Shown one piece after another: positions 1,663-5,018 of a DNA stretch of 64,000 bases. The notes under the pieces are model-generated. The model ran no database searches, had not been told where the DNA came from, and saw nothing but the letters and a program-made list of their open reading frames with translations. The translations under genes and the position numbers were made by a program. How positions within the stretch are numbered: position 1 is the first letter of the stretch; every line of letters starts with the position of its first letter. The stretch comes from Desulfobulbaceae bacterium (GTDB taxonomy: Bacteria > Desulfobacterota > Desulfobulbia > Desulfobulbales > SURF-16). The stretch lies in the NCBI GenBank assembly GCA_002868945.1, contig PKTX01000005.1, positions 1 through 64,000 of the forward strand. The letters are read 5' to 3'.

Positions 1663-2228
1663 GCTGACACCGTTTTATCTTTTTTCATCCGGCACTCTCA
1701 ACAAATAGTGGTTGAAGCACTGCTGCAAACGCCCTGTGGCACCATCTCTTCATAACATAACTCTAAAAGCATTGTCATTTTTAAGTAGCATCCATCAGGC
1801 CGTTCTTGACAAGCGTGAGCACGATGTCCAAAATACATCCAGACAGGGTAACAGCAACAACACACCACCCTATGGCGATCGAACCTCCGGCGTTCGTACC
1901 TGATGAACGCAGCACCGCCCGAACCTGCCGTAACCGGCACGACTGCTCAAGGGGGGGGAACGATTCGCTCGTTTTAGGCTATCTTGATATAATGAGATAT
2001 TTTATTTTCGTAGCGACGAAAAAATCGGACAGGTAAGCGAGCCTGCGAGACTCCGAAATAGCAATTATGCAAGATGGCCTTTACTCATTTCCGGCACCAG
2101 AGGCTGGAAGGGACACCGACAGTTGCCATTCTTTGTGTGGCCGTCGGCAGGGGGCCAGGCGAACCTCTCCCGGCCAACCGAACCATCTCATACAGCCAGA
2201 CACTGGCCCAGACAGCACGAGGCACCCC
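1663..2228. other. Non-coding stretch between aroB and the winged-helix gene
   Basis: 566 bp between divergent genes. It contains family-C element copy 1 (1977-2079). The remainder has only short open frames of biased composition and no recognisable protein or RNA gene. A GC-rich stretch at 2080-2228 leads into the next gene. Confidence 0.5.
1977..2079. mobile_element. MITE-like element, family C copy 1
   Basis: About 103 bp with imperfect inverted ends: GGCTATCTTGATATAAT on the left and ATTATGCAAGATGGCC on the right. The interior carries GAGATATTTTATTTTCG and the shared core GGTAAGCGAGCCTGCGAGAC followed by TCCGAAATAG. A closely similar copy (about 90% by eye) is at 30986-31087. Single ends occur at 28195-28226 and 49735-49759. 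It is non-coding. Confidence 0.7.
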
Positions 2229-2675
2229 ATGACATCAGAAAAGAAAAACAAACTCACGGAAACCACGGAACGGGTGGGCAAGGCCCTGGCCCGCTCCAGC
2301 TTCAAGGCGGAAACAGTCGGCCGCAGGGCCCAGAAAAGGGTGGAAGACCTGGTGGGCAAGGTTTCCAGGCGGGGCCACCGCACAATGGCAGAAACCGACA
2401 AACCTGCAGCAGCGGAAAAGTTGCCCGAGGCGACAAAGGCCACGCCCCCCTTTACAGCCGGCCCAGGTCTCTCCATTCCGGAGCAATTCGGCTTTATTGC
2501 CGGCGCCATCCACACCTATCTTGACAAAAACGGCCACGTACCCACCAGCAGGTTGATCAACGCGCTCATGCGGCAAAAAAACAGCCGGGCAAACGTCCTG
2601 GCCGCCATCGGCTGGCTGGCCAGAGAGGACAAACTGCAATTCAGCGAAGACGGCGCCATGGTAGCGCTGAAGTAG
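2229..2675 (+). CDS. Winged helix-turn-helix (DUF2582-like) protein
   Basis: A 148-residue protein. The first ~90 residues are basic, then rich in Ala and Pro, and look disordered. The last ~65 residues (IPEQFGFIAGAIHTYL through the end) match the small winged-helix domain called DUF2582, including the typical AIGWLAREDKL motif. Function is unknown; a nucleic-acid-binding role is inferred from the fold only. The ATG at 2229 was chosen over an upstream frame opening at 2067 because the upstream extension has no domain and lies in repeat-derived sequence. The gene appears to stand alone, and a palindromic repeat pair follows it directly. Confidence 0.7.
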   Translation: MTSEKKNKLTETTERVGKALARSSFKAETVGRRAQKRVEDLVGKVSRRGHRTMAETDKPAAAEKLPEATKATPPFTAGPGLSIPEQFGFIAGAIHTYLDKNGHVPTSRLINALMRQKNSRANVLAAIGWLAREDKLQFSEDGAMVALK

Positions 2676-2681
2676 CCCGTG

Positions 2682-2817
2682 CCCCCTCTCCCCGAAGGGG
2701 CGAGGGGAGTTGTCAGTCGTGCCGAGCCATGCCGTTCGCCCATTCGAGCAGAACGATCTTCCCCCAGCACCGCTTCCACTTTCCCCTCTCCCGCCGGGAG
2801 AGGGCCAGGGTGAGGGC
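2682..2817. repeat. G/C-rich palindromic repeat pair left of the DUF559 gene
   Basis: Two copies of a self-complementary repeat: one at 2682-2707 (CCCCTCTCCCCGAAGGGGCG) and one at 2783-2817 (CCCCTCTCCCGCCGGGAGAG, then GGCCAGGGTGAGGG). Each can fold into a hairpin. The same unit recurs three times on the other side of the DUF559 gene. Confidence 0.75.
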
Positions 2818-2826
2818 AAAAATCGC

Positions 2827-3153
2827 ATGAAAGATAAAGCCCGCAGCCTCAGACGCCGGCAAACCGAGGCAGAAAAACGCCTCTGGCAATACTTACGGAA
2901 TCGCCAGCCGGCCGGCTGTAAGTTCAGGCGCCAACATCCGATTAGCCCCTATATTGTCGACTTTGCCTGTCTGGAGAAAAAACTGATCATCGAACTCGAT
3001 GGCAGCCAACACCTGGAGGCTAAAGAGCCTGACAACCGCCGCGACAACTTCCTCAAAGAGAAAGGTTTCACGGTGCTGCGCTTCTGGAACCACGAGATCT
3101 TTGCAGAAACAGAGGCCGTTTTGCAGTTGATTTACCACAAACTTAACAAATAG
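2827..3153 (+). CDS. DUF559 (Vsr-like endonuclease fold) domain protein
   Basis: A 108-residue protein. The segments RRRQTEAEKRLWQYLRNRQ, GCKFRRQHPISPYIVDFAC and KLIIELDGSQHLE are the hallmark of DUF559, a small restriction-endonuclease-like/Vsr-related domain. The putative metal and catalytic residues are the D of IVDF, the E and D of IIELDG, the Q and H after it, and the terminal FTVLRFWNHEI. The start at 2827 was chosen because homology begins at MKDKARSLRRRQ; the longer frame runs through the palindromic repeat. The gene lies between two blocks of G/C-rich palindromes, an arrangement resembling REP sequences with a dedicated nuclease. Cellular role unknown. Confidence 0.85.
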   Translation: MKDKARSLRRRQTEAEKRLWQYLRNRQPAGCKFRRQHPISPYIVDFACLEKKLIIELDGSQHLEAKEPDNRRDNFLKEKGFTVLRFWNHEIFAETEAVLQLIYHKLNK

Positions 3154-3156
3154 ATC

Positions 3157-3441
3157 CCCCTCACCCTAACCCTCTCCCCTGAGGGGCGAGGGAATATCGG
3201 TCATACGAGGCCATATAGCCTGCTCCAGTCCAAAGCAGGTCGATCTCCCATCCCCGGCAATCTCCCACCACAGCTTCCATTTTCCCCTCTCCCGCCGGGA
3301 AAAAGCCAGGGAGAGGGGATTGCCAATCGTGTCCGCGCATATTCCCCTGCGCCAGCCCAAAGCAGGCCAATCCCTTTCCCGCCCCCCATCACTGCTTCCA
3401 CTTTCCCCTCTCCCTGGGGGAGAGGGCCAGGGTGAGGGGAA
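3157..3441. repeat. Three G/C-rich palindromic repeats right of the DUF559 gene
   Basis: Repeat units near 3157-3192 (CCCTCACCCTAACCCTCTCC), 3282-3320 (CCCCTCTCCCGCCGGGAAAA) and 3402-3441 (CCCCTCTCCCTGGGGGAGAG). They are separated by ~85-bp spacers that resemble each other (each contains CAATC or CGATCTC and CAGCTTCCA- or CTGCTTCCA-like text). They match the pair left of the DUF559 gene, so the gene sits inside a five-unit array. Confidence 0.75.
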
Positions 3442-3445
3442 AAAG

Positions 3446-3495
3446 CGCATAAAAAAAGGGGGAAACGCCATATGACGTCTCCCCCTTTTTATGCG
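3446..3495 (-). terminator. Rho-independent terminator of sat
   Basis: Hairpin with stem AAAAAAAGGGGG...CCCCCTTTTT, extended by CGCAT/ATGCG at the base, just past the sat stop. It is symmetrical enough to work in both directions. Confidence 0.8.
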
Positions 3496-3521
3496 GTAAA
3501 CAACAGCCTCAGGCTGATTAC

Positions 3522-4799
3522 TTACATGGAGTCACCGGAAGCGGCACCCTGCATCTTAACCTCCACCTTCTCGGTGAGGCCTTCATAGTACTCGCGCAGG
3601 ATAACCAGAACCTCGTCACGACCGAAGTGATCCGGAATGTCAGCACCCTCGGAAAGGGCCTTGCGCAGCTTGGTACCGGAAAGGATGACGCGGTGCTCTT
3701 TGTCATGGGGACAGGTGCGCAGAGAAGCCATACCATCACACTTGGAGCAGTAGAAGGTCCAGTCGATCTTCATGGGCTTACACTGCAGATCCTTACCCTC
3801 GTCACCGGTGGTGGGGATCTTGTCAAAGATTTCCTGGGCCTCGAACAGACCGTAGAAGTCACCAACGCCGGCATGGTCACGACCGATCAGCATGTTGTTA
3901 ACACCGTAGTTCTGGCGGAAGGTGGCGTGCAGCAGACCTTCACGAGGACCGGCGTAACGCATATCCAGCGGATAACCGGCCTGGATGACGTTGTCTTTGA
4001 CAAAGTGATGCTCAACCAGGGTGTCGATGGCCTTAACGCGAACCTCGGCAGGAATATCACCCGGCTTGAGGTTACCGATGAGGGAGTGGATCAGACAGCC
4101 GTCACACACCTCGATGGCGATCTTGGCCAGGAACTCGTGAGAGCGATGCATGGGGTTACGGAGCTGCAGGGCAGCAACATTGGCCCAACCGCGCTCCTCA
4201 AACATGGTGCGGGTCTCGGCAGGAGTCAGGTAGACGCCTTTGTAGTCCTCGGGATAGCTGCCCTGAGAGAGAACCTTGACGGGACCGGCCAGGTTGACCT
4301 CTTTCTGGTTCATAACCATGATAACGCCGGGATGATCATCCGGGGCAATCTTCCAGAAATTGCCATCCACGGATTCCTCGCCTTCACCTTTGAAAACCTT
4401 CTCACATTCCCACTTCTTGTCAGCGTCGGTCATCTCAAACTTCTCGGTGACCTTCATGGTAGCCATGGGCTGACCATCGGCAAAAAGGGCAACCTCTTCA
4501 CCTTCACTGATGGCATCGGCATCGGCCTTGGAAACGTCAAGGGTAATGGGCACAGGCCAGAAGGTGCCGTCAGCCATCTGGAAGTTCTCACAGACGCCTT
4601 TCCAGTCAGCCTTGGTCATGAAGCCATCAAGCGGAGAGAAACCACCGATACCCATCATAATCAGGTCGCCTTTGGCACGAGCACTAACGTCAATCCTCTT
4701 CAGCCCTTTTGCTTTTTCGAGTTCAGTCTCAAGCTCATTGCCATGCAGCAGGGCACAAACCAGTCCTTTTCCACCATGTGGGGCTACTAATTTAGACAT
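3522..4799 (-). CDS. sat: Sulfate adenylyltransferase (ATP sulfurylase), dissimilatory type
   Basis: Activates sulfate to adenylyl sulfate (APS) with ATP, the first step of sulfate reduction in the cytoplasm. The 425-residue homo-oligomeric form shows [10 protein letters not shown] at 212-221 (the nucleotide/sulfate-binding QxRNPxHxxH motif) and GRDHAG at 306-311. A C-x2-C-x8-C cluster at 351-363 followed by PHD marks the zinc-binding prokaryotic/archaeal class found in sulfate reducers. AAGGAGACC precedes the ATG. The gene has a strong promoter far upstream and its own terminator, so it is a monocistronic, probably highly expressed unit. No aprAB or qmo genes lie nearby. Confidence 0.97.
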
Positions 4800-4990
4800 G
4801 TGATCGGTCTCCTTAAAAAATGAAAATTAAAAGATATAGTGCGCCCGCACTTACGTTGCAGCTTGCACAGCTGGACTAACAGCAGGAGCCCTGGATCGCG
4901 TAAGCTGGCGCTTCGATTAACTAAAAATCGACAATTCGAAAAAAAATGGTCCGCACACCTAATGAACCATTATTCATTTTCGTTGGCCTA

Positions 4991-5018
4991 TATATAGTTA
5001 GTTGGTGGAGTATGTCAA
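4991..5018 (-). promoter_or_regulatory. Sigma-70-type promoter of sat
   Basis: On the minus strand, TTGACA (5013-5018), a 16-bp spacer, then TATATA (4991-4996). The predicted start near 4984 gives a ~185-nt leader before the sat ATG. No known riboswitch was recognised in that leader. Confidence 0.7.

Follow-up and report, generated by a model that had tools for sequence, protein, structure and literature searches.

The window analysed here, a stretch of 64,000 nucleotides from a Desulfobulbaceae bacterium, carries five G/C-rich palindromes around an intact DUF559 gene, two to its left and three to its right. Do the gene and the repeats belong together, and if so, as what kind of element? A preliminary description had reported this arrangement, with similar linkers between the palindromes, had likened it to REP sequences and RAYT enzymes, and had suggested that a DUF559 protein moving or processing its own repeats would be a new type of selfish element. 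The number and placement of the palindromes held when checked against the sequence and its shuffles. The similarity of the linkers held only in part, for the three palindrome sites of family D1, which share a CTTCCACTTTCCCCTCTCCC-like left flank and have a mutual identity of 68-89%.

The palindrome array and its nuclease gene

The sequence CCCCTCTCCC was found five times in the 64 kb window, with all copies within 2683-3414. Among 100 dinucleotide shuffles of the window its mean count was 0.31 and its largest 2, and a count of 5 was reached by none; the shuffles together with local control positions ruled out chance or base composition as the source of the array. All five palindromes are hairpins, three of them with an adjacent tag. 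The gene-proximal tags are reverse complements of each other, and the DUF559 gene is therefore bracketed by inverted repeats. Folded as single-stranded DNA, the five palindromes gave -8.2 to -16.2 kcal/mol, with z values of -1.04 to -3.91 against shuffles, so that only some of them are exceptional in this respect. For the right outer palindrome an alternative longer hairpin is possible, which takes in its tag. The left tag may conceivably double as a ribosome-binding sequence, although this is inferred, and a degenerate tag, CCCGTGCCC, may precede the left outer palindrome directly after the DUF2582 stop codon, an inference from sequence alone.

Features of the array and its neighbours (window coordinates)
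Feature	Position	Strand	Evidence
DUF2582 gene, left neighbour of the array	2067..2675		
Left outer palindrome, CCCCTCTCCCC-GAA-GGGGCGAGGGG	2682..2707	+	sequence, folding
Left inner palindrome, CCCTCTCCC-GCC-GGGAGAGGG	2784..2804	+	sequence
Left tag, GGGTGAGGG, 10 nt 5' of the DUF559 start codon	2808..2816	+	
DUF559 (PF04480) nuclease gene, 108 aa, first ATG frame	2827..3153	+	Pfam, family alignment, AlphaFold model
Right tag, CCCTCACCC, 4 nt 3' of the DUF559 stop, reverse complement of the left tag	3158..3166	+	
Right inner palindrome, CCCTCTCCCC-TGA-GGGGCGAGGG	3170..3192	+	sequence, folding
Right middle palindrome, CCCTCTCCC...GGGAGAGGG, wide loop	3285..3317	+	sequence, folding
Right outer palindrome, CCCTCTCCC-TGG-GGGAGAGGG	3406..3426	+	sequence, folding
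Right outer tag, GGGTGAGGG	3430..3438	+	
Right neighbour, taken to be sat (sulfate adenylyltransferase)	3522..4799	-	sequence reading

A longer frame of the gene, starting with TTG at 2710, crosses a repeat. An Rfam search of window positions 2000-5000 gave no match. The DUF2582 gene encodes a winged-helix domain, and a relative of the gene stands beside sat in 7 of the 16 loci examined, the window's own included. Elsewhere in the same genome no second DUF559 gene was found, and exact-type copies of the repeat number seven in all. The other strong palindromes of this genome are inverted pairs without DUF559 on contigs C38 and C43. These pairs (L018, 2900-3120; L019, 2940-3120) come after the same GACTTTTGC-like stretch, nested in a larger inverted-repeat element whose ends resemble CCAGTGTTGTCCGGTTAG.

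The membership of the gene product in PF04480 is clear (147.3 bits, cut-off 20.6), and PF04480 and MTES_1575 were its only Pfam matches. All of the invariant DUF559 columns of a 49-sequence alignment are present (W20, Q36, D45, E56, D58, H62, D69, R72 and R85); residue conservation was also computed over 172 DUF559 loci. An AlphaFold model built from the 49-sequence alignment had a pLDDT of 89.0, and its nearest fold was the gonococcal DUF559 protein 3hrl (VIA Z 16.8). The model also matched the catalytic domain of the homing endonuclease I-Bth0305I, 3r3p (VIA Z 11.9, rmsd 2.6, 91 residues), which was found as well by Foldseek (E 2.8e-4) and by sequence profile (E 4.7e-6), and Vsr structures (VIA Z 9.6 and 9.2). 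YcjD was earlier assigned to the PD-(D/E)XK superfamily, close to Vsr (PMC1189080). A domain like that of the model was seen in mitochondrial ribosomal proteins of Toxoplasma and Tetrahymena (VIA Z about 9).

Several other identities were considered and rejected. The NCBIfam model of the Vsr mismatch endonuclease, TIGR00632, was not met (21.3 of 97.85 bits); a GIY-YIG domain was absent from the Pfam matches of the window gene, and an HUH/Y1 tyrosine transposase found no support among them. Matches to known anti-phage defence proteins in PADLOC were weak or partial, the best being DpdF (E 4.7e-4 over 49 residues), and the PDB sequence matches to toxin B chains, none with an E value below 0.19, were noise.

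Association and pairing of repeats and protein across phyla

The survey of DUF559 genes for flanking palindromes that had been suggested as a check was carried out on 172 distinct DUF559 loci, drawn from the same phylum, four other phylum samples, genome contigs and plasmid records. DUF559 matches were present in 57 of 148 genomes of the same phylum and in 53/99, 46/150, 48/101 and 24/96 genomes of the other four samples. The loci are the best matches of each search, and the sample is thus biased toward full-length genes. Three plasmid-labelled records (NZ_CP141089.1, NZ_OL790696.1 and NZ_CP119142.1) are 2.2-4.9 Mb long and look like mislabelled chromosomes. Bracketing was scored without any motif, by locally aligning the 200 nt upstream to the reverse-complemented 200 nt downstream; three of the 172 loci were skipped because of short flanks. 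A score of at least 28 was reached by 119 of the 169 DUF559 loci, compared with 6 of 325 control positions taken within these loci. By group the proportions were 36/41, 20/27, 19/29, 17/27, 14/23, 10/16 and 3/6, and bracketing was present in every phylum sample. In 132 of the 169 loci the score was higher than in any of 20 dinucleotide shuffles of the locus itself. Many of the 50 loci under the threshold have palindromes by eye and a few have none (for example L076).

The threshold of 28 was picked after the results of an earlier, weaker version of the test were known. Other thresholds gave 132 loci versus 13 controls (24), 104 versus 2 (32) and 71 versus 2 (40). The earlier version had taken the next stop codon as the end of the gene and so lost repeats overlapping the gene end; at a score of at least 30 it found 17 of 39 DUF559 genes against 9 of 418 ORFs, and it is superseded by the core-based test.

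The idea would have been refuted by palindromes equally common away from DUF559 genes. The exact-type pattern CCCTCACCCNNNCCCTCTCCC, with one mismatch allowed, was searched in 148 genomes of the same phylum and was present in 72 of them. Exact-type repeats no more than 250 nt from a DUF559 gene numbered 22 over 41 such genes, against 0.21 expected from the genome density, an enrichment of about 103-fold, and the refutation did not apply. In absolute number most copies are still away from the gene, namely 520 of the 542 in the 30 genomes concerned. At least one copy was found in 30 of the 33 genomes with a full-length DUF559 gene, compared with 42 of the 115 without, and at least three copies in 24 of the 33 compared with 31 of the 115 (p 3e-6). 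Since these 31 genomes keep three or more copies, the repeats persist without a resident gene. The repeats are thus strongly tied to the DUF559 gene, REP-like in their dispersal and able to outlive the gene.

The type of repeat also tracks the protein. Among the 129 loci whose repeats are clear, the similarity of the repeats increased with protein identity, between phylum samples too (partial Mantel r 0.31 after controlling for phylum and GC; none of 500 within-phylum permutations was as high). In 97 of the 129 loci the repeat was more similar to that of the nearest cross-phylum protein than to the others of that phylum, and where a genome has two or three DUF559 genes, the repeat often differs from gene to gene. 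The DUF559 gene and its repeat are inherited or transferred as one unit. The simplest explanation of the pairing, though not the sole one, would be direct recognition of the repeat by DUF559; this is an inference, and transfer of the cassette as a unit could produce the cross-phylum correlation without any direct recognition. Associations between residues and repeats were found at columns 25, 31 and 33. They are uncorrected for kinship and rest on crude regular-expression repeat classes, and are only a lead.

These data bear on a first alternative, in which other machinery, such as a RAYT or an IS, moves the palindromes, and DUF559 inserts into the arrays or is captured by them. It is supported by the 520 copies away from DUF559, by the repeats in genomes without the gene, and by a precedent, ISPpu9, an insertion sequence targeting REPs. 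Against it, no recurrent second gene was found near DUF559, the largest neighbour family touching only 6 of the 172 loci; the repeat type tracks the DUF559 protein and not the host; and for a generic target the inverted pairing of the two ends, seen in five phylum samples, would be unexpected. We consider this alternative unlikely.

Insertion polymorphism and in-frame copies

Within the genus of the window, G606 and G607 have DUF2582 beside sat with neither repeats nor DUF559, and in G608 this place holds repeats together with a DUF559 gene whose frame is broken. The array is also missing from three other members of the family (L223, L225 and L235); 2 of the 7 syntenic DUF2582-sat loci carry it. 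The polymorphism within the genus could represent loss instead of gain, and the two cannot be distinguished here. In E. coli no clean empty site is available, as strains without ycjD have an efflux operon after sapF.

The window copy of DUF559 is intergenic; in-frame insertion was seen only in relatives. The DUF559 frame runs at least 100 aa past the domain in 33 of the 172 loci, some of these being chance open frames. A Pfam scan covered 21 of the 33 long frames, and in 14 of the 21 host-protein domains flank DUF559 on both sides. The hosts are LeuRS (L017, L098, L117 and L120), MetH (L102, L109, L114, L174 and L182) and, at a single locus each, PriA (L007), RecO (L011), UDP-galactopyranose mutase (L015), RecG (L123) and HsdR (L100). 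Six further long frames (L106, L138, L187, L189, L190 and L207) have a domain of another protein or of an intein on one side of DUF559 or around it, and the long frame of L082 has no host domain on either side by the Pfam scan. The MetH insertions occupy at least three distinct positions, in two phylum samples. In L189 and L190, from the G155 phylum sample, DNA methylase genes are interrupted by intein-like segments that contain DUF559; in L190 DUF559 stands where an intein endonuclease would sit, and the match to PF14890 (E 2e-5) is below the Pfam cut-off.

The leuS site was followed in Bacteroidota relatives of G216, where 19 of 23 loci were readable and 4 had no readable motif. Fifteen of the readable sites were empty, two carried a lone in-frame palindrome (L253 and L257), and two carried an in-frame palindrome-DUF559-palindrome cassette (L252 and L260). 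The start of the L257 palindrome is identical to that of the palindrome left of DUF559 in L252. G216 and G626 have a single LeuRS each above the family cut-off, and the interrupted gene must therefore work. No clear target-site duplication was seen in either the leuS or the DUF2582-sat comparisons. Association, specificity, joint travel of gene and repeat, insertion polymorphism and in-frame entry into essential genes are thus shown.

In a second alternative DUF559 is a nuclease of mismatch or very-short-patch repair, and the palindromes act only as terminators or mRNA-stabilising hairpins. It is supported by the Vsr fold of the model and by Caulobacter VsrA, a DUF559 protein that triggers the SOS response in a strain without a cytosine methylase, for which VSP repair was proposed (PMC12907096). 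Against it, the window protein falls short of the NCBIfam vsr cut-off by the margin given above, and terminators leave unexplained the upstream inverted copy, the enrichment over controls, the in-frame palindromes of LeuRS and MetH and the insertion polymorphism. We regard it as very improbable.

Equally hard to sustain is a third alternative, a DUF559/repeat system beneficial to the host, for example one that limits uptake or recombination of foreign DNA with or without the repeat, or one that organises repair at dispersed repeats. In its favour are the analogy to the stand-alone GIY-YIG nuclease with repeats of Neisseria, Ssn/NTS, and the retention of the region of ycjD, a DUF559 gene of E. 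coli, in 3363 of 5426 E. coli genomes, with high conservation in phylogroups A, B1 and C (PMC12817139). Against it, an element that enters essential genes in frame and occurs only patchily among members of a genus looks selfish, and the PADLOC matches are weak and partial.

The reading we prefer, and judge likely, is that the DUF559 gene and its flanking hairpin repeats form one mobile, probably selfish, transposase-free element. Recognition and cutting of the repeats by DUF559, as well as the copying route, are inferred, no cleavage or movement having been observed. The element would end in a hairpin with a short gene-facing tag, the two ends being inverted copies of each other. DUF559, as a Vsr-fold nuclease of the homing-endonuclease type, would recognise its own tag-and-hairpin and cut or nick at that site, perhaps while the DNA is single-stranded during replication or uptake; the whole cassette, or the repeat alone, would then be copied to new places by repair or recombination of the host. 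Solitary repeats and repeats in inverted pairs would be non-autonomous, REP/REPIN-like offspring. The suggestion of a new type of selfish element accordingly fits the evidence, except that its mechanistic part, a DUF559 protein that moves or processes its own repeats, is not shown and remains an inference.

A bolder reading, on which we would not lean to either side, is that DUF559 proteins, as homing-type nucleases, are the missing enzymes of pan-bacterial transposase-free mobile elements, which would spread themselves with their own recognised tag-and-hairpin ends, also in frame into LeuRS, MetH and other essential proteins, and would have seeded many unexplained G/C-rich palindromes, perhaps including E. 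coli box C, with GIY-YIG nucleases maybe as a parallel. With an element of the kind described here, abundant dispersed palindromes that had no enzyme would be supplied with one, a widespread domain still named as of unknown function would gain a likely function, and a second, independent route to REP-like repeats would exist, with a nuclease in place of a tyrosine transposase. That a cell's sole LeuRS can hold a nuclease cassette in frame is a striking example of an essential protein tolerating selfish DNA.

Comparison with known systems

No link between DUF559 and repeats was found in the open-access literature searched, subscription papers and preprints being outside its scope. Among free-standing GIY-YIG genes (L264-L293, for example L266, L271, L280 and L284), 9 of 29 were bracketed compared with 0 of 53 controls. 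Like the DUF559 loci, these pairs have a small nuclease gene between hairpin repeats; the nuclease fold differs, however, and the repeats are mostly of another type (GTCATTCCCGCG..CGGGAATCCAG; TTCGACAGGCTCAGGG). In the E. coli ycjD loci that were read, CCCTCACCC-type repeats lie 3' of the gene, as in the window, but the upstream bracket is a different inverted repeat. The box C repeat adjoins fabI in E. coli.

I-Bth0305I provides the nearest solved homing-endonuclease fold, and one DUF559 domain was found in an intein-like domain, as intein endonucleases are. Unlike I-Bth0305I and the intein endonucleases, DUF559 is mostly free-standing and has hairpin ends, with no splicing element and no single empty target site proven.

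The likeness to REP sequences and RAYT enzymes held as an analogy, and one that is general far beyond the window, on the strength of bracketing, enrichment, pairing, polymorphism and the leuS series. As in the REP/RAYT 'REPtrons' (PMC3733652), the gene lies between short-tagged hairpin repeats in inverted orientation, single and paired copies are dispersed elsewhere, some of them intragenic, and there are several repeat families, each paired to its own protein. In contrast to the REPtrons, the enzyme is a Vsr-fold DUF559 nuclease and not an HUH tyrosine transposase, and the tags read CCCTCACCC / GGGTGAGGG instead of GTAG at the hairpin foot. Because this transposase and the GTAG tag are missing, the DUF559 system lies outside the REP/RAYT family. 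The same source, which makes no mention of DUF559, describes CGTC-class REPs without a dedicated transposase (PMC3733652). It also describes the Rickettsia palindromic elements, which resemble the present case in placing in-frame palindromes inside conserved proteins; unlike them, some of the DUF559-related insertions bring a nuclease gene in frame.
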